Of a stretch of 64,000 bases of DNA, positions 34,155 to 49,609 are shown in pieces; position 1 is the stretch's first letter, and each line of letters begins with the position of its first letter. Made by a program: the position numbers and the translations under genes. The stretch comes from Desulfobacula sp. Its GTDB lineage: Bacteria; Desulfobacterota; Desulfobacteria; Desulfobacterales; Desulfobacteraceae. The notes beneath the pieces are model-generated. The model saw only the letters and a program-made list of their open reading frames with translations, searched no databases and had not been told where the DNA came from. Where the stretch lies: assembly GCA_023701135.1 (NCBI GenBank), contig JAMPXP010000007.1, positions 62,001 to 126,000 on the forward strand. Direction: 5' to 3'.

Positions 34155-37100
34155 TCAGGCCTGAATTTTTGCGACAATGGCCTCCACCACTTTTTCAGCC
34201 GTATCGCCGAAGAGGGTATCCACCTCCACCAGGTTCAGATACCGGTCATCCCACTGGAAATTCCCGCTTTCAAGAATCCAGTCCTTGAGCCGGTTGTATT
34301 TTCCGCCCAGGGCCTTGATTTTCTTGAGGAGGGGAACATCCTCGGAGGATTTGAAACTGATGTTCAGGGACAAGAGATATTCAATGATATTGGGCGTGGC
34401 CGGGTTGGCTGAAATGATGGGGATCACCAGGATGTTCTTGTTGTCTTTCCGGCCCCGGCCGATATAGACATTGCCTTCCCTGACAATGATATTTTTCGTG
34501 CCCTTGAGCCTATGATCGTTTTCCACCCGGGAGGGCTCTTCTCTCAGCGCTCCGGTTTTATTAATGATTTGAATCTTGGTTTCCGGGGTTACCTCACCCA
34601 GAAGGCTCAGGCCCGAAATCTGGTAAACCAGTCCGCCGTTGACCCTGGAGATGACTTCCTGAAGGTTTTTAATGACCAGCACATTTTTATGGGTGATCTG
34701 GGAGATCTGGAAATTATTGATGTTCAGTTCATTGAAAATGATGCCTTCAAATTTTTCCGTGATCCTGCTGGTGCCGACGGTGACGGTTTTGGCCTGGTGC
34801 TTGATGGCATCCACCGGCCTTGCCATGATATTGATGGAATGGTTGATATTGGTGAAAAAGGTGTTCAGCATATTGGTCGGGGTGCCCTTGGTTTCAAAAT
34901 CAATTTCAAAATCCGATACGGGCAGGCGGCCGGAAAGGTATTTCAGGAGCAGGGTGAGATTGGCGGCATTGTCAAGCCCCATGGCTGCAGGAAAGCTTCC
35001 CTGTCGCCGCTTTTTGGAAAACCGGTTGTAGAACTGGGCAATGGTTTCCCTGAACCGTTTTTCAAGCAGGACCTCGTAGACATCATGCCCCATGGTGGTA
35101 TATTCATCCAGAAGATCCTGGATTTCCGCCCTGGCGTCGTACATGAAGCGGGACCCTTCATTGATGGCCAGGGCTGCATAATAACCCCAGATATGGCCCA
35201 CCAGGGTATTTAAAACCGGGGCAAAATGTTCTTTGGTTTCCGGGATCTTGAACACATCGGCCGCATAGGGGTCAAACCGGTCTTCTCCAAGGGTGGTGAT
35301 GACCACGGGCGTTGCCTTGTGGGCCTTGAAAATGGCCGTATCCTTGATGATGTCGCCCAGAACGCTTTCCCTTGTGCCGGCGGCACAGACAATGATGAGG
35401 GGCTCGCTGGAAAGGTCGATATGTTTTTTATCCTCTATAAAATCCGATGAAATGGTTTTATAGCAGAGTTCGCTGAGCTTGATGCGGATTTCGTCGGCCG
35501 AGGTCTTGTTGGAGCCTGACCCGACGGTGGCCCAGTAATATTTGGATACGGCCAGGCGGTCCGCCGAGGCCTTGATCGCATCCTTCATGCCCAGGATGGT
35601 TCTCATCTTGTCCGGCAGGGAAAGGATCTCATGGATTTCTTCGGTGATGAAATCAGCAGACCGGGTGCCGGTGAGGGCGGCCATGTGAAGACCGAAAACA
35701 GCGCCGGCCGTTATCTGGGAATAAAATGCCTTGGTGGAGGCCACCGACATTTCAATGTCCCGGCCCGAGCTGGTGTAGAGGACCCCGTCGGTCTTAAAGG
35801 TCAGGTCTGAATCCCGGCGGTTGACAATGGACAGGGTTCTGGCACCGCAGGCCTTGACCATGTCCACGGTCCGGTTGGTGTCTGTGGTGGTGCCGGACTG
35901 GCTGATGGCCACCACCAGGGTGTCGGTCATGGATTTTTCCCCGTTTTGTCCTTCAATGATGGAGAAACCGGAAAGCTCCGAGGATTTCAAGGCCCGGATC
36001 TGGATGCCGATGTCCCCGATATAATATTTCATAAGATCGGCACAGCCCTGGGCTGCTATCCCGGCTGTTCCCTGGCCGATAAAATAGATTTTTCTGATCC
36101 GCTGCTGCCTGAAATCCTCTTCCAGGGATCCGGGAATGACTTTCGGGTCCAGGACAGTCTCAAAAAGACGGGTTTCAGGGGATTGCCTGAATTTGTTCTC
36201 AAGGGTTTTCTCAACCGAGCCCGGGGATTCTGAAATTTCCTTTAAAAAATAATGGGGAAAGTTCTGGCGGTCAATGTCCCGGGAGGTGATCCTGCTGGTC
36301 ATGATCCCGGTTTCATCCATGGGGATGGGGGTGCAGTCATAATAACAGGACCGGATACCGGATATCCCGCCTGTGGATTCATGGTCCAAAATGACGATCT
36401 GGCCTCTGTCTTCCCCGTTGAGCTTGATATAATTCTGGGTTTCTTCCACAATGCCGTAAAGTTCGGACGCAGCCATATAATGATCTTGTGCAATTCCGAC
36501 AAAAATGGCCTGGCCGCTTCCCTTCTGGGCCAGGAAGAGTTTTCCGGGCGCCAGATCCGAGTGCATGCTGATGGCATGGGAGCCTTCAAAATCATTGAGG
36601 GCAAGCCTGAAGGCATCTTCCAGGGGGTTGCCCTGTTTGAGATAGTGCTCGATCTGGAGCGGGATGAGTTTGGTGTCGGTGTTGATATCGGTATGGAGTT
36701 TGTCATACCGGGCCTCGTATTCGGTTTTGAGTTCCAGGTAATTATCAATGTCGCCGTTCAGGCAGACATGGATGATCCCGGTCTTGCCGATGCTTTTATC
36801 AGTGGGGGTATTGTCCTGGGGATGGCAGTTGGCAACGGTGATATCTCCCACCGAGGCCCAGCGGGTGTGGGCGGATACGGAGTTGGCCGTGAAATCATAA
36901 TGGGCCAGCAGTTGCAGGAGATGATCATTTTTGATCTGGCTCCGGAGAAAGGCCACATTGTCCCCGAGGGCTCCGATCTCTGCGGCAAATTTATAGACAA
37001 AGGAAATGGACACAAAATGCCCGTTGTTTTCCGGAAAGGTGTCATGAATGGTCAGGCTGTTATTGGACAGGACAATATGGTTGGTTCTCTGTTTGAGCCG

Positions 37101-37856
37101 TTCCGAATGCCCGGCCTTAATGAGGCCGTCCCTGAAACGCTCAAACTCCTGTTTGGTAAAGGTGAACAGGGCGCTGATGCCTGCGGAATCCCTTCCCCTG
37201 ACTTCAAGCCGGTCAATGCTGTTCAATATGGCATTCATCCGTTTGAACACGCTTAATCCCTTGGCATTTCCTGAATGTTCAAGATCCGGGGCCAGATTTT
37301 CAATGGCGGCAATATTTTCCAGAATTTCTTTTTTTATGCACCAGGCGATGTCCCGGAGCCGTTCCAGCCGTTGAGAGATGATTTCGGCTTCAGCAGGGGA
37401 GAAGGCGGACAGTTTCTGTTTAAAATGGGCGTTCTGATCGGTTGCAAGCTTTTCAAGGCTGTCTTTTAAGGAACCGAGCAGGTCTTGCTTGTCCGGACTG
37501 AAAAAGATATCTGAAAAATATTTTTCCTGCTTTAATGCCTGGCAGTCTTCAAGAAAGCCGTTTAAAAAATCGTCTCCTCCCAGGAAATCCTCTTGAAGGT
37601 CCCGGGCCGGATCGGTCAGGGTTTTCCCGTTCAGAAAAAACGCTTTTTCCTTTAGGGTGTCCAGATAGGAGGGAGATAGGGCAGGAGCCCCTTTAAAGGC
37701 CACAAGGGCGGATATGCCGCAGAAAAAAGTGTTGGGCCGCTGGGGCAGAAATATAAGGGTGTTTTCCCTGGCTGATGCAGGGGAAGCTCCGATTTCAACG
37801 TTTACAGAAAAGAGTTGTCTGAGCCTGTTCAAAAAAGCGGTTAAAGGCTTGAGCAT
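34155..37856 (-). CDS. Oversized GlmS-like glutamine amidotransferase/SIS protein
   Basis: 1233 aa, twice the length of GlmS (~610). The Ntn-type Cys that GlmS has at position 2 is C46 (FFCGISALVAF), after a 45-residue leader; the start is secure (GGGAGG 5 bases before the ATG). GATase parts: HTRWASVGDITVANCHPQD and VCLNGDIDNYLE, split by a ~200-residue helical insert (~65-270). SIS domains: AISQSGTTTDTNR (~655), ASTKAFYSQI and YYWATVGSGSNKTSADE (~775). The last ~280 residues are unrelated to GlmS, whose C-terminal KSVTVE is absent. It probably acts on a sugar phosphate with glutamine ammonia; calling it glmS is not justified. Confidence 0.8.
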   Translation of the reverse strand: MLKPLTAFLNRLRQLFSVNVEIGASPASARENTLIFLPQRPNTFFCGISALVAFKGAPALSPSYLDTLKEKAFFLNGKTLTDPARDLQEDFLGGDDFLNGFLEDCQALKQEKYFSDIFFSPDKQDLLGSLKDSLEKLATDQNAHFKQKLSAFSPAEAEIISQRLERLRDIAWCIKKEILENIAAIENLAPDLEHSGNAKGLSVFKRMNAILNSIDRLEVRGRDSAGISALFTFTKQEFERFRDGLIKAGHSERLKQRTNHIVLSNNSLTIHDTFPENNGHFVSISFVYKFAAEIGALGDNVAFLRSQIKNDHLLQLLAHYDFTANSVSAHTRWASVGDITVANCHPQDNTPTDKSIGKTGIIHVCLNGDIDNYLELKTEYEARYDKLHTDINTDTKLIPLQIEHYLKQGNPLEDAFRLALNDFEGSHAISMHSDLAPGKLFLAQKGSGQAIFVGIAQDHYMAASELYGIVEETQNYIKLNGEDRGQIVILDHESTGGISGIRSCYYDCTPIPMDETGIMTSRITSRDIDRQNFPHYFLKEISESPGSVEKTLENKFRQSPETRLFETVLDPKVIPGSLEEDFRQQRIRKIYFIGQGTAGIAAQGCADLMKYYIGDIGIQIRALKSSELSGFSIIEGQNGEKSMTDTLVVAISQSGTTTDTNRTVDMVKACGARTLSIVNRRDSDLTFKTDGVLYTSSGRDIEMSVASTKAFYSQITAGAVFGLHMAALTGTRSADFITEEIHEILSLPDKMRTILGMKDAIKASADRLAVSKYYWATVGSGSNKTSADEIRIKLSELCYKTISSDFIEDKKHIDLSSEPLIIVCAAGTRESVLGDIIKDTAIFKAHKATPVVITTLGEDRFDPYAADVFKIPETKEHFAPVLNTLVGHIWGYYAALAINEGSRFMYDARAEIQDLLDEYTTMGHDVYEVLLEKRFRETIAQFYNRFSKKRRQGSFPAAMGLDNAANLTLLLKYLSGRLPVSDFEIDFETKGTPTNMLNTFFTNINHSINIMARPVDAIKHQAKTVTVGTSRITEKFEGIIFNELNINNFQISQITHKNVLVIKNLQEVISRVNGGLVYQISGLSLLGEVTPETKIQIINKTGALREEPSRVENDHRLKGTKNIIVREGNVYIGRGRKDNKNILVIPIISANPATPNIIEYLLSLNISFKSSEDVPLLKKIKALGGKYNRLKDWILESGNFQWDDRYLNLVEVDTLFGDTAEKVVEAIVAKIQA

Positions 37857-46361: not shown

Positions 46362-48647
46362 ATGACATTTTCTATTATAGATTCCATCGGCAATACTCCC
46401 CTTGTGGAGATTACAAAGATGAACCCCGTGGAAGGGGTTCGGATTTTTGCCAAACTTGAATATATGAATCCGGGCGGGTCTGTGAAAGACAGGGCAGCCC
46501 TTTATATGATCACCGAGGCGGAAAAGTCGGGAGAATTAACGCCTGACAAAACCGTTATTGAAGCCACCAGCGGAAACACGGGCATCGGCCTTGCCATGAT
46601 CTGTGCCGTTAAAGGGTATAAGATCGCCCTTGCCATGGCTGAAAATGCCAGTGAGGAACGTAAAAAAATTCTGCGCGCCAGGGGGGCAAGGATTATTCTA
46701 ACCCCCACGCATTTAGGGTCTGATGGCGCCATTGAAGAAGCTTACAGGTTAGCCAGGGAAAATCCGGACAAATATTTTTTAACGGATCAATATAATAATG
46801 ATGCCAACTGGAAAGCCCATTATTATACGACAGGCCCTGAAATTATCGACCAGACCAAGGGCTCGGTTTCCAGTGTTGTGGCCTCCATCGGCACCAGCGG
46901 CACCCTCATGGGGCTTTCCCGAAGACTCAAGGAATATAATAAGGACATCCGGATCATCTGTGCCGAACCCTATCTCGGCCATAAGATACAGGGGCTTAAA
47001 AATATGAAAGAATCCTATACCCCTGAAATCATGGATAAAAGCCTGATTGATGAAAAGATCAATATTGATGATGAGACCGCCTTTCAGACGGCCCGCATGC
47101 TGGCGGTCAAGGAAGGCATCTTTGTCGGGATGAGCAGTGGGGCTGCCATGGCCGCAGCCATTGAAGAGGCCCGGAAGATCAAAACAGGGGTCATTGTTGT
47201 CATTTTCCCCGACAGCGGGGAAAGATATCTGTCCACCAGTCTTTTTTCCGTGGAAAATCATATCGGCTTATCCCTCTTCAATTCGTTTTCAAAATCAAAG
47301 ACGCCCTTCGAACCCCTGGAAAACGGGAAGGTATCGGTTTACACCTGCGGGCCAACGGTTCACAAAAGGCTCAATATAGCCCAGCTCCGGCGCTATGCCT
47401 TTACGGACCTGCTCATCCGGTATATTGAATACCACAATATCAATATCAATCATATTGTAAACATCACAGACTATGACGACAAAACCATCCAGGGATCCTA
47501 CCAGGCAGGAATGACCCTTGCCAGGTTTACCCAGCAGTATTTTGATATTTTCAGGCAGGATCTTGAAAAACTTGATATCAGGGCGGCGGACGCCTATCCA
47601 AAGGTTTCGGATCATTTTGATGATATGATAGAGGTGGCAAATCAACTGCAATCCAGGAAACATTCCTATGAAAAACTGCATTCTCTTTATTTTGATATTT
47701 CAAGCCTGCCCGGGTATGGGGAGTTTTCCGGAATTGATCTGGATAAAATAAAACCCGGTGCCACCGTTGATCTTGATGAATATGAGAAGCTTAACCCCAA
47801 GGACTTCACGTTGTTCAAGCGGGTCCGGCTTTCAGAATTGAAAAGGGGGGTCGGGATCAAAACCCAATGGGGAAACGTCCGTCCCTCCCTTCACCTTCAG
47901 TGCGCTGCCATTGCCATGAAATATCTGGGCGATGCCTTTGATATTCAAACCGGCAGCCGGGAGCTGATTTTTCCCCATCATGAAAATGAAGTGGCCATAG
48001 CAAAGGCAGCCACGGGATCATCTCTTGCCCGGTACTGGCTTCACTGCGCTCCCATCCAATACGATGGCTCCCTTGGCGTGCCGGATATGGATTCTTTGAC
48101 CCTTGACTATCTCACCGGTCAGGGATGGGAACCCAGAACCCTTCGTTTCTGGCTCATTTCCAACCATTATAGGAAAACCCTGCTCCTGTCCCAGCAGTCC
48201 CTGAAAGAGGCCCAATATACATTGGATAAGATCAATCGGTGTCTGGATACCCTGAATGCGATTCAGGATGGGCGGGTATTTGAGGAGGTCGATCAGCTCA
48301 TCTATGATATCCGGTCCTCATTTTTGAAATTTATGGAAGATGATCTGAAGATATCCGGTGTTGTGTCTTCATTGCTGGCAAATATCAAAACCATTAACAG
48401 CCTCATCAATCAGAGCCGGCTTGATCCTGAAAGCGCTAAAAAGATTCTGGGGTGTTTCAGGGATATGGATTCAGTCCTGAAGATTTTCAATTTTAATACA
48501 TTGATAGACTATTCCGAGGATATCCGAAAACTCATAAAAGAACGGGAATTGGCGCGGGAAGAGAATGATTTTGATCTGGCCGACAGGATCAGGGAAAAAT
48601 TAACGGCTCTGGGCGTTCATGTTCATGACAAAAAGGTGGAAGCATGA
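46362..48647 (+). CDS. Cysteine synthase fused to a CysRS-like domain lacking HIGH and KMSKS
   Basis: 761 aa. Residues 1-~305 are a CysM/CysK-type PLP enzyme with all landmarks: PGGSVKDRA (PLP Lys K42), EATSGNTGIGLAM and SIGTSGTLMGL. Residues ~320-761 align along the full length with cysteinyl-tRNA synthetase (YTCGPTV, NITDYDDKTI, FPHHENEVAIAKAATG, C-terminal LAREENDFDLADRIREKL). The zinc ligands are kept (C329, C514, H539, E543). HIGH reads NIAQ (338-341) and the KMSKS segment is replaced by GSLGVPDM, and the Trp of WHIEC is Leu. So ATP-dependent cysteine activation is unlikely; the domain may bind cysteine or tRNA. Next gene overlaps by ATGA. Confidence 0.88.
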   Translation: MTFSIIDSIGNTPLVEITKMNPVEGVRIFAKLEYMNPGGSVKDRAALYMITEAEKSGELTPDKTVIEATSGNTGIGLAMICAVKGYKIALAMAENASEERKKILRARGARIILTPTHLGSDGAIEEAYRLARENPDKYFLTDQYNNDANWKAHYYTTGPEIIDQTKGSVSSVVASIGTSGTLMGLSRRLKEYNKDIRIICAEPYLGHKIQGLKNMKESYTPEIMDKSLIDEKINIDDETAFQTARMLAVKEGIFVGMSSGAAMAAAIEEARKIKTGVIVVIFPDSGERYLSTSLFSVENHIGLSLFNSFSKSKTPFEPLENGKVSVYTCGPTVHKRLNIAQLRRYAFTDLLIRYIEYHNININHIVNITDYDDKTIQGSYQAGMTLARFTQQYFDIFRQDLEKLDIRAADAYPKVSDHFDDMIEVANQLQSRKHSYEKLHSLYFDISSLPGYGEFSGIDLDKIKPGATVDLDEYEKLNPKDFTLFKRVRLSELKRGVGIKTQWGNVRPSLHLQCAAIAMKYLGDAFDIQTGSRELIFPHHENEVAIAKAATGSSLARYWLHCAPIQYDGSLGVPDMDSLTLDYLTGQGWEPRTLRFWLISNHYRKTLLLSQQSLKEAQYTLDKINRCLDTLNAIQDGRVFEEVDQLIYDIRSSFLKFMEDDLKISGVVSSLLANIKTINSLINQSRLDPESAKKILGCFRDMDSVLKIFNFNTLIDYSEDIRKLIKERELAREENDFDLADRIREKLTALGVHVHDKKVEA

Positions 48648-49609
48648 AGGCTCACTGTATATTTTTTCCGTTTTCCCATATCTCACAAGATCAGCTTGCG
48701 GCGCTTCAGACTTTTTTTTCATCCTTTGTTTTTTTTCCGGCAGCTTCGGATTTGGATCATTCCATCCAGTTAAAGGAGCTGATGGGCAAAGGTGAGGCGA
48801 TCCCTGTTTTTTCATCCCGGGAAGACCTGGTCGTGGTTGATCGTCAATTTGAACAATACATGAACTGGGTGAAGATACACAAAGGAAACGAGCGCAACCT
48901 CAGATTCCTGTTAAATGGCAATCCGTATTTTACGAGTGATTCCGATCTGACGGCCATCAAATCATACATCAGGGGCAAAAAGGAGATCATAAAACCGCAA
49001 CCATCACCCAAGGATGCATTGCTGAAGGATTTATTGTTTTTAAAAATGGCAAAACAGTGTGACCGGGATAATGAAAACACGGATAACCAACTCAAAACCA
49101 TTGAAAAAAACAGGAGCAGGATGATCTCAACCCTTCTGGGGGAAGATGATCCGATGACGGCAGAGGCATCCGGCGGAAAATCCGGCAGCCTGGATGCGGG
49201 CATCACAATGACCCGGGAGCGGATAGAGGCCTGGGCAAGATGCATGGCACAGTTCAATACGGTTGAAAATGCCACTGAAAGCCCTGTCTTTGTAACGACC
49301 AGTGAGGCTGTGTTTGATTATCTTGAGACTATTTCTTCAGATACGATAAATGCCCTTGACATCGATTCGATAAAAGTGCATGAAAATGAGTGTGAAAATA
49401 AAATCGGGTGGCAGCAGCGGTTTTTTGAACAAGTTATATGCGCTGCAAAAGGTGATCTGGATCGACAGCATCATCTGCCTGAAGTGATGGATGAATGTTC
49501 ACTTTCAGGGCAGATAAAAATGAGTCTTTTTTCCGGGAATAATATTCACAATCTCTTTCATCTTAAAGACAAACAGATACGGGTCTGTTGGATAAGGATA
49601 AAGAGATAA
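48644..49609 (+). CDS. Unknown protein translationally coupled to the CysM-CysRS-like fusion
   Basis: 321 aa, no family recognised. Start overlaps the previous stop (ATGA, 48644-48647), so the two products are made together. N-terminal ~80 residues are hydrophobic-mixed (HCIFFPFSHISQDQLAALQ) without a signal peptide. A charged helical middle (residues ~120-165) contains a low-complexity KNRSRMISTLLGEDDPMT stretch, and ~195-250 is helical (RERIEAWARCMAQF). Length and codon use are normal for the region, so it is very likely a real gene. A role linked to cysteine or sulfur is guessed only from coupling. Confidence 0.8.
   Translation: MKAHCIFFPFSHISQDQLAALQTFFSSFVFFPAASDLDHSIQLKELMGKGEAIPVFSSREDLVVVDRQFEQYMNWVKIHKGNERNLRFLLNGNPYFTSDSDLTAIKSYIRGKKEIIKPQPSPKDALLKDLLFLKMAKQCDRDNENTDNQLKTIEKNRSRMISTLLGEDDPMTAEASGGKSGSLDAGITMTRERIEAWARCMAQFNTVENATESPVFVTTSEAVFDYLETISSDTINALDIDSIKVHENECENKIGWQQRFFEQVICAAKGDLDRQHHLPEVMDECSLSGQIKMSLFSGNNIHNLFHLKDKQIRVCWIRIKR

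Follow-up and report, generated by a model that had tools for sequence, protein, structure and literature searches.

The HisRS-like domain of the eukaryotic kinase GCN2 is a dead synthetase domain that binds tRNA and controls the enzyme to which it is fused. HisZ, a HisRS paralogue tied to the histidine biosynthetic enzyme HisG, provides feedback without adenylation, according to passages of PMC9437257. Relatives of cysteinyl-tRNA synthetase (CysRS) include MshC, which parts of the same source describe as linking cysteine with a sugar during the synthesis of mycothiol, and CysRS* of the Desulfobacterales, described in portions of PMC7609411 as active and devoid of an anticodon domain. Here we analyze a 64,000-nucleotide stretch of DNA (the window) from Desulfobacula sp. 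(family Desulfobacteraceae, order Desulfobacterales; GenBank assembly GCA_023701135.1, contig JAMPXP010000007.1, positions 62,001 to 126,000 of the forward strand), which encodes a cysteine synthase fused to a CysRS-like domain. The anticodon-domain residues, and not the zinc ligands, are the steadiest feature of this CysRS-like domain, and we tentatively propose that it has been kept as a regulatory sensor of tRNA-Cys. Pairing an inactive synthetase domain with the pathway that makes the cognate amino acid is a known kind of arrangement; tRNA as the signal would go beyond it.

The fusion shares features with each of these systems. Like HisZ, it pairs a synthetase paralogue that has no adenylation motifs with an enzyme from the biosynthesis of the corresponding amino acid, but the two parts are covalently joined and the tRNA-contact residues are retained. 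Like the GCN2 domain, it keeps tRNA-contact residues while the catalytic motifs are gone; GCN2 is a kinase with a class II HisRS-like domain, whereas the fusion is a bacterial biosynthetic enzyme and its CysRS-like domain belongs to class I. The nearest analogue would be HisZ if cysteine alone is sensed, and the HisRS-like domain of GCN2 if tRNA is sensed. CysRS*, likewise found in these bacteria as an additional relative of CysRS, was rejected as an identity because the motif pattern is reversed, the fusion having an anticodon domain and lacking activation motifs, and because tRNA-Ser, and no other tRNA such as the selC* that goes with CysRS*, was found in the window. MshC is also related to CysRS, and its structure 3c8z_A was a Foldseek match of the fusion model, but this identity was rejected on score (148.6 bits versus a cut-off of 485.1). 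tRNA-dependent cysteine synthesis of the SepCysS kind was set aside, the pyridoxal phosphate (PLP)-dependent half having an ordinary cysteine synthase fold. In a partial literature search, a cysteine synthase-CysRS fusion was not recognized among the matches listed, and we do not claim its absence from print.

The features of the fusion gene and of its downstream neighbor are collected in Table 1. The N-terminal half matches PALP over residues 7-284 (E 1.7e-73), and the C-terminal half matches tRNA-synt_1e over residues 316-618 (E 9.9e-66) and CysS_C over residues 716-758. Among NCBIfam profiles, the window protein scores 371.6 bits with cysKM, above the cut-off of 344.15, 378.7 bits with the stricter cysM, below the cut-off of 394.2, and 299.3 bits with cysS over residues 303-758, below the cut-off of 340. 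Alignment with CysRS spans the entire C-terminal half, residues 302-758, which bears out the end-to-end alignment claimed by the original prediction, made from the DNA letters without database searches. An AlphaFold2 model, for which 62 fusions were used, is of high confidence (pLDDT 90.7, pTM 0.80), and with Foldseek it matched CysM (2bhs_A, TMt 0.96 over the target) and the E. coli CysRS taken from its tRNA complex (1u0b_B, TMt 0.83, 469 columns). In annotation, genes of this architecture could be mistaken for those of an ordinary cysteine synthase or an ordinary CysRS.

Table 1. Features of the fusion gene and of gene 2 (positions are those of the window).
Feature	Position	Strand	Details or basis
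Fusion gene	46362..48647	+	761 aa; CysM-like cysteine synthase and CysRS-like domain
PLP cysteine synthase domain	46362..47249	+	residues 1-296; CysM-like
K42, PLP Schiff-base lysine	46485..46487	+	59/59 family and order fusions; 62/62 diverse fusions
K213, aligned with enterobacterial CysM Arg210	46998..47000	+	128/128 fusions
CysRS-like domain	47265..48635	+	residues 302-758; phmmer to 8qhp_A, E 1.4e-81 over 302-758
C329, zinc ligand (E. coli C28)	47346..47348	+	alignment
Degenerate HIGH (NIAQ, residues 338-341)	47373..47384	+	alignment
R344, fusion-specific (with K438, R487)	47391..47393	+	60/62 fusions
C514, zinc ligand (E. coli C209)	47901..47903	+	alignment
H539 and E543, zinc ligands (E. 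coli H234, E238)	47976..47990	+	alignment
Replaced KMSKS stretch (GSLGVPDM, residues 569-576)	48066..48089	+	alignment
Anticodon-domain residues R728, R732, F737, D741, R744, D756	48543..48629	+	124/125 fusions
Gene 2, 321 aa, function unassigned	48644..49609	+	ATGA overlap with fusion gene

To compare the CysRS-like domains of the fusions with 70 canonical CysRS sequences, domains of at most 250 bits or covering at most 400 positions were excluded and identical ones merged, which reduced 169 domains to 125. A complete HIGH or HIGN was found in 3/125 fusion domains and 70/70 canonical proteins, the Asp at E. coli position 229 in 32/125 versus 70/70, KMSKS in 9/125 versus 66/70, and an intact C-C-H-E zinc set in 99/125 versus 70/70. 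All six anticodon-domain residues (R423, R427, W432, D436, R439, and D451 in E. coli numbering, with Trp, Phe, or Tyr allowed at 432 and Arg or Lys at 427) were present in 124/125 fusion domains versus 69/70 canonical ones. When the domains were divided according to locus lists that we set ourselves, the 83 from the same order or family included none with HIGH or HIGN, 5 with D229, none with KMSKS, 75 with the zinc set, and 82 with the anticodon set, and the 42 from elsewhere included 3, 27, 9, 24, and 42, respectively. The fusions of the window's order thus differ from canonical CysRS (TIGR00435) in the loss of HIGH, D229, and KMSKS, and resemble it in the whole fold, in the anticodon-domain residues and, in most cases, in the zinc ligands.

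In the window protein itself, HIGH reads NIAQ, KMSKS reads GSLGVPDM, and Leu 510 takes the place of the Trp in WHIEC, all as originally read, and the Asp at position 229 is gone. It is highly improbable that the fusion is still a ligase that activates cysteine for tRNA or another acceptor, and for the window protein a new cysteine ligase, as had been suggested, is not supported, since it has lost all three of HIGH, KMSKS, and the Asp at 229. Neither HIGH nor KMSKS is kept in any of the 83 domains of the same order or family, so that the loss seen in the window is general there. The cysS score of the window protein lies below its cut-off, the MshC score is low, and a separate CysRS was found in 40/40 fusion genomes tested, including the genome of the window, where a canonical CysRS lies on another contig (G000:C41; G, C, and L numbers are our handles for genomes, contigs, and loci). 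This separate CysRS is a fragment of 100 positions in G246 and is split in G262. Since all 40 genomes have one, the fusion is not needed as the CysRS of the cell. Favoring a ligase, three outgroup fusions (L116, L189, and L202) keep the whole activation set of HIGH or HIGN, D229, and KMSKS-like residues, and several fusions, three of them of the same order (G095, G149, and G189), exceed the cysS cut-off of 340 bits. The original prediction had allowed that homologs might possess HIGH and KMSKS and that the window protein might simply be decayed. Homologs of that kind do occur outside the order, where 3/42 domains keep the whole set and 9/42 keep KMSKS, so activation was lost stepwise; simple decay of the window protein does not look likely, given its full length and conserved tRNA-contact residues.

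The zinc site, which the original prediction described as kept, is present in the window protein, and in the 59 aligned fusions of the family and order C329 is conserved in 58/59 and C514, H539, and E543 in 59/59. Across the wider group it is less steady than had been supposed, with 26/125 domains altered, and zinc-based sensing of cysteine as the sole conserved core was dropped for that reason. In all 26 zinc-altered fusions R423, D436, R439, and D451 are present, as is Arg or Lys at 427. The loci L209-L212 have lost three of the four zinc ligands and retain the anticodon-domain residues. The most decayed lineage (L207 and L209) falls outside the 125 domains; L209, examined separately and the most decayed sequence read, lacks HIGH and three zinc ligands and has every anticodon-domain residue. 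On a tree of 45 fusion domains, the minimum number of changes is 3 for HIGH, 8 for D229, 5 for KMSKS, 6 for the zinc set, and 1 for the anticodon set. The sole exception to the anticodon set among the 125 domains is a second copy that ends early (L236), and in a diverse alignment of 62 out of 116 fusions, selected at a 72% identity cut, the six residues are kept in 61, one of which has Lys at 732. Because the anticodon-domain residues are the best kept even where zinc has been lost, tRNA-Cys, and not only free cysteine, is suggested as the ligand. In the sections of PMC12684709 that bear on recognition of tRNA-Cys, Arg427, Asp436, and Trp432 contact G34 and Arg423 takes part in a water network; R439 and D451 are not among the G34 contacts named in those sections.

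A sensor of the HisZ type, in which free cysteine bound at the zinc of the CysRS-like half inhibits the synthase with no involvement of tRNA, appears unlikely. The zinc ligands are indeed kept in 75/83 domains of the order and family and in 99/125 overall, and HisZ is a precedent for such feedback, but the retention of the anticodon-domain residues in the 26 zinc-altered fusions, and the state of L209-L212, speak against it. So does the Trp beside the cysteine site, which is Leu in 33 and Trp in 26 of the 59 family and order fusions; the replacement of this Trp was correctly seen in the window and is not general. The suggestion of a product sensor or feedback device was a fair guess that missed the anticodon residues and so overlooked tRNA-Cys as a ligand. 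The same tRNA-contact residues would also support a channeling scaffold, in which the domain docks tRNA-Cys, perhaps together with the true CysRS, and newly made cysteine is handed on without release. Archaeal SepRS-SepCysE-SepCysS assemblies offer a precedent, judging from extracts of PMC5424206 and PMC8762117, and the near-intact outgroup fusions suggest an ancestor able both to make and to activate cysteine. We nevertheless consider channeling improbable, as the contact with CysRS is purely hypothetical and free cysteine is needed for other uses where the fusion is the only synthase found.

The CysRS-like half could also be a decaying passenger that is kept merely for folding or oligomerization of the synthase. 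In several lineages the activation and zinc motifs have been lost step by step, which would be consistent with this. However, the domain is near full length in most fusions read, and R343, R487, Y436, K476, W559, and Y603 are invariant across the 62 diverse sequences. Fusion-specific residues also stand at positions that are variable in canonical CysRS, namely R344 (60/62), K438 (59/62), and R487 (62/62), and the anticodon-domain residues are unchanged save in one truncated copy. A passenger role is therefore very unlikely.

The N-terminal half was confirmed as an intact PLP cysteine synthase, as had been claimed from the window alone: besides the lysine that forms the Schiff base, S70-G71-N72-T73-G74, G177-T178, and G180-T181 are invariant in the 62 diverse fusions, and the loops TSGNTG and GT(S/T)GT are invariant or nearly so; cysteine formation is predicted. 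The PLP fold, K42, the substrate loops, and a [K/R]-N-M-x-E motif are shared with the mycobacterial-type CysM, an O-phosphoserine sulfhydrylase, from which the fusion differs in carrying a CysRS-like domain and in that its substrate is a prediction. Both K213 and N214 are present in 128/128 fusions, and K213 aligns not only with Arg210 of enterobacterial CysM but also with the Arg of LRNM in mycobacterial CysM. A residue at the Arg210 position aids O-phosphoserine selection in some organisms, according to statements in PMC3805590, and mycobacterial CysM is an O-phosphoserine user in the account given in parts of PMC12910592. The CysE-linked CysK of the window's genome has IGAGF where the fusion has LKNMKE. 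The basic residue linked to O-phosphoserine use is present, although it is not a sufficient feature, and O-phosphoserine is the likely substrate of the fusion.

The distribution of CysE is consistent with this prediction. Among 30 selected fusion genomes, 12 have no cysteine synthase-type protein besides the fusion at E 1e-10, and eight of these 12 consist of one contig. Among the 123 genomes with the fusion in the order sample, a second cysteine synthase is present in 86/88 with a strong CysE (defined by a chosen threshold, a match of E up to 1e-40) and in 7/35 without, a difference with a Fisher p of 6.5e-19, which overstates the case because the genomes are related. The fusion stands alone as a cysteine synthase-type protein in 28/35 genomes without strong CysE, three of the 35 having a weak match (E 1e-31 to 1e-26), versus 2/88 genomes with it. 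In these 28 of the 123 genomes, the usual controlled step of cysteine synthesis was not found as a strong match and the fusion is the sole synthase of its kind.

We therefore favor, with a probability somewhat below one half (about 0.45), a CysE-independent cysteine synthase whose activation-dead CysRS domain is kept as a tRNA-Cys-binding regulatory sensor. The PLP half would make cysteine from sulfide and, most likely, O-phosphoserine, in which case CysE is not needed. The CysRS-like half of this order has probably ceased to bind ATP or form cysteinyl-AMP, as its motif losses suggest, and may still dock tRNA-Cys through the anticodon, as its contact residues suggest. Where zinc is kept, the metal could bind the thiol of cysteine, either free or at the end of Cys-tRNA-Cys, and the domain could thereby distinguish charged from uncharged tRNA. 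This state would be relayed to the synthase, with synthesis turned down by charged and up by uncharged tRNA-Cys, or possibly in the opposite direction, as a stand-in for the feedback placed on CysE in other bacteria. The most specific version of this mechanism, in which a synthesis enzyme is gated by its cognate tRNA through anticodon binding and a zinc that reads charging and so sets O-phosphoserine-dependent synthesis, is doubtful. If true, it would be a protein-based counterpart of the T-box in sulfide-rich bacteria without CysE. A domain that senses tRNA-Cys would place a bacterial enzyme under the control of its cognate tRNA, tuning cysteine to the needs of protein synthesis in sulfate reducers that live in high sulfide, where restraint on cysteine synthesis must come from something other than sulfur supply. 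The fusions also range from near-intact to dead CysRS, a natural series in which the change from synthetase to regulator can be studied.

Several observations weigh against a tRNA-Cys sensor in a CysE-independent synthase. A rank test of conserved columns in the anticodon domain against the rest was not significant (p 0.17); it used 7 columns, including one within a stretch absent from most fusions. Some of the anticodon-domain residues could be structural and serve the fold. The whole activation sets of L116, L189, and L202, outside the order, fit poorly with a dead domain, as do the fusions that exceed the cysS cut-off, so score alone is no marker of loss. That the two halves communicate is something we purely infer. 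With regard to the substrate, enterobacterial CysM, named as an O-acetylserine enzyme, also has an Arg at the 213 position, and K213 is therefore no proof of O-phosphoserine use; the CysM of C. jejuni rejects O-phosphoserine, as reported in portions of PMC9855970, and standalone relatives with the LKN motif (L224-L226) sit in genomes with strong CysE. In addition to the overstated Fisher p, strong CysE is present in 88/123 of the order's sampled genomes with a fusion, which means that another route to cysteine often exists beside it.

Among the matches listed for the family, 74/86 genomes have a whole or partial fusion: 61 have one near-full-length match, 13 have partial matches attributable to contig ends or inserts, and 12 have none. 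Among the matches listed in a separate scan, named relatives with the fusion include Desulfobacula, Desulfotignum, Desulfocapsa, and Desulfopila, and further carriers are bins labeled Desulfobacteraceae or Deltaproteobacteria. In the order sample, the fusion was counted by its N-terminal half in 123/145 genomes at a chosen threshold (E under 1e-105), with a few cut by contig ends; G103, G206, and G216, counted among the 22 without, do have C-terminal pieces. A phylum sample had the fusion in 117/297 genomes at E 1e-110, 11 of the 117 being from the window's order. Proteins of this architecture, 42-90% identical to the window protein, occur in many genera, and the fusion is thus neither chance nor a local lesion. 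In a tree made by a quick method with midpoint rooting, a branch with support of 100 separates all 45 fusion domains from the 49 canonical ones, and the simplest reading is a single origin followed by long vertical descent.

Second, divergent fusion copies stand beside an existing one at L234 (G049), L235 (G057), and L236 (G152), the last without its anticodon-binding end. In one genus of the family (G002 and G004-G011; e.g., L237, L238, and L244), the fusions are mostly in longer frames, about 805-880 amino acids where unbroken, and their matches are interrupted around residue 276 and at other places, as though by insertions.

Further CysRS relatives were encountered in some genomes. L280 (G189:C1:3114500-3117500), a third and separate gene in its genome, is CysRS*-like and encodes 415 amino acids with both activation motifs and without the anticodon domain, and L281 is a partial near-copy of it about 7 kb away. 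L283 (G243:C1:592500-597500) and L284 (G279:C27:34500-39800) are extra CysRS genes of about 460 amino acids with HLGN/HIGN and KMAKS, which run in-frame into about 270 amino acids that by eye are like a GT2 glycosyltransferase, giving total lengths of 742 and 729 amino acids; their DIDDK stretch is DVGHM, and they cluster on the tree with the divergent CysRS proteins of G095, G189, and G114. L285 (G472:C34:18000-21500) is a third CysRS relative of 424 amino acids, with KMSKS present and a metal site that by eye is altered, and its match covers only positions 1-321 of E. coli CysRS.

Gene 2 was described as coupled to the fusion, and whether it always follows was posed as a check. The coupling holds within the order: gene 2 lies directly downstream of the fusion in 28/30 family loci and 24/29 order loci read, with a 4-base overlap in 17 of the 28. 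Among all the loci read, L022, L198, and L208 have too few downstream bases for gene 2 to show. It is interrupted by a stop in L007. Outside the order the coupling fails, with gene 2 downstream in none of the 29 loci read, 27 of which have a called fusion. A remote homolog lies upstream in L196 and, among the named loci, L116, and near the fusion in L203. Nor is gene 2 always next to a fusion, since in four family genomes (L229-L232) it has no adjoining fusion, three times standing beside an LptD-like gene, and one of these genomes, G060, carries its fusion elsewhere. F8, P9, D140, and R193 are invariant across 67 gene 2 sequences, and the structural model is good (pLDDT 86.9); Foldseek matched no solved fold at E 0.001 and profile searches gave no family above cut-off. 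The neighborhood contains, by eye, LptD, SurE, YhaM-like, and Tmk genes, and gene 2 is more a neighbor in this cluster than a proven partner of the fusion.

At Rfam gathering cut-offs the only hit in the 64-kb window was a tRNA, with no riboswitch or T-box before the fusion gene. Promoter-like sites (9 versus a shuffled mean of 7.4, standard deviation 2.5) and terminator-like sites (7 versus 4.3, standard deviation 2.3) do not clearly exceed the shuffled counts. Elsewhere in the window, positions 34155-37856 on the reverse strand encode a 1233-amino acid protein that by eye resembles an enlarged glutamine amidotransferase/SIS enzyme of the GlmS type.

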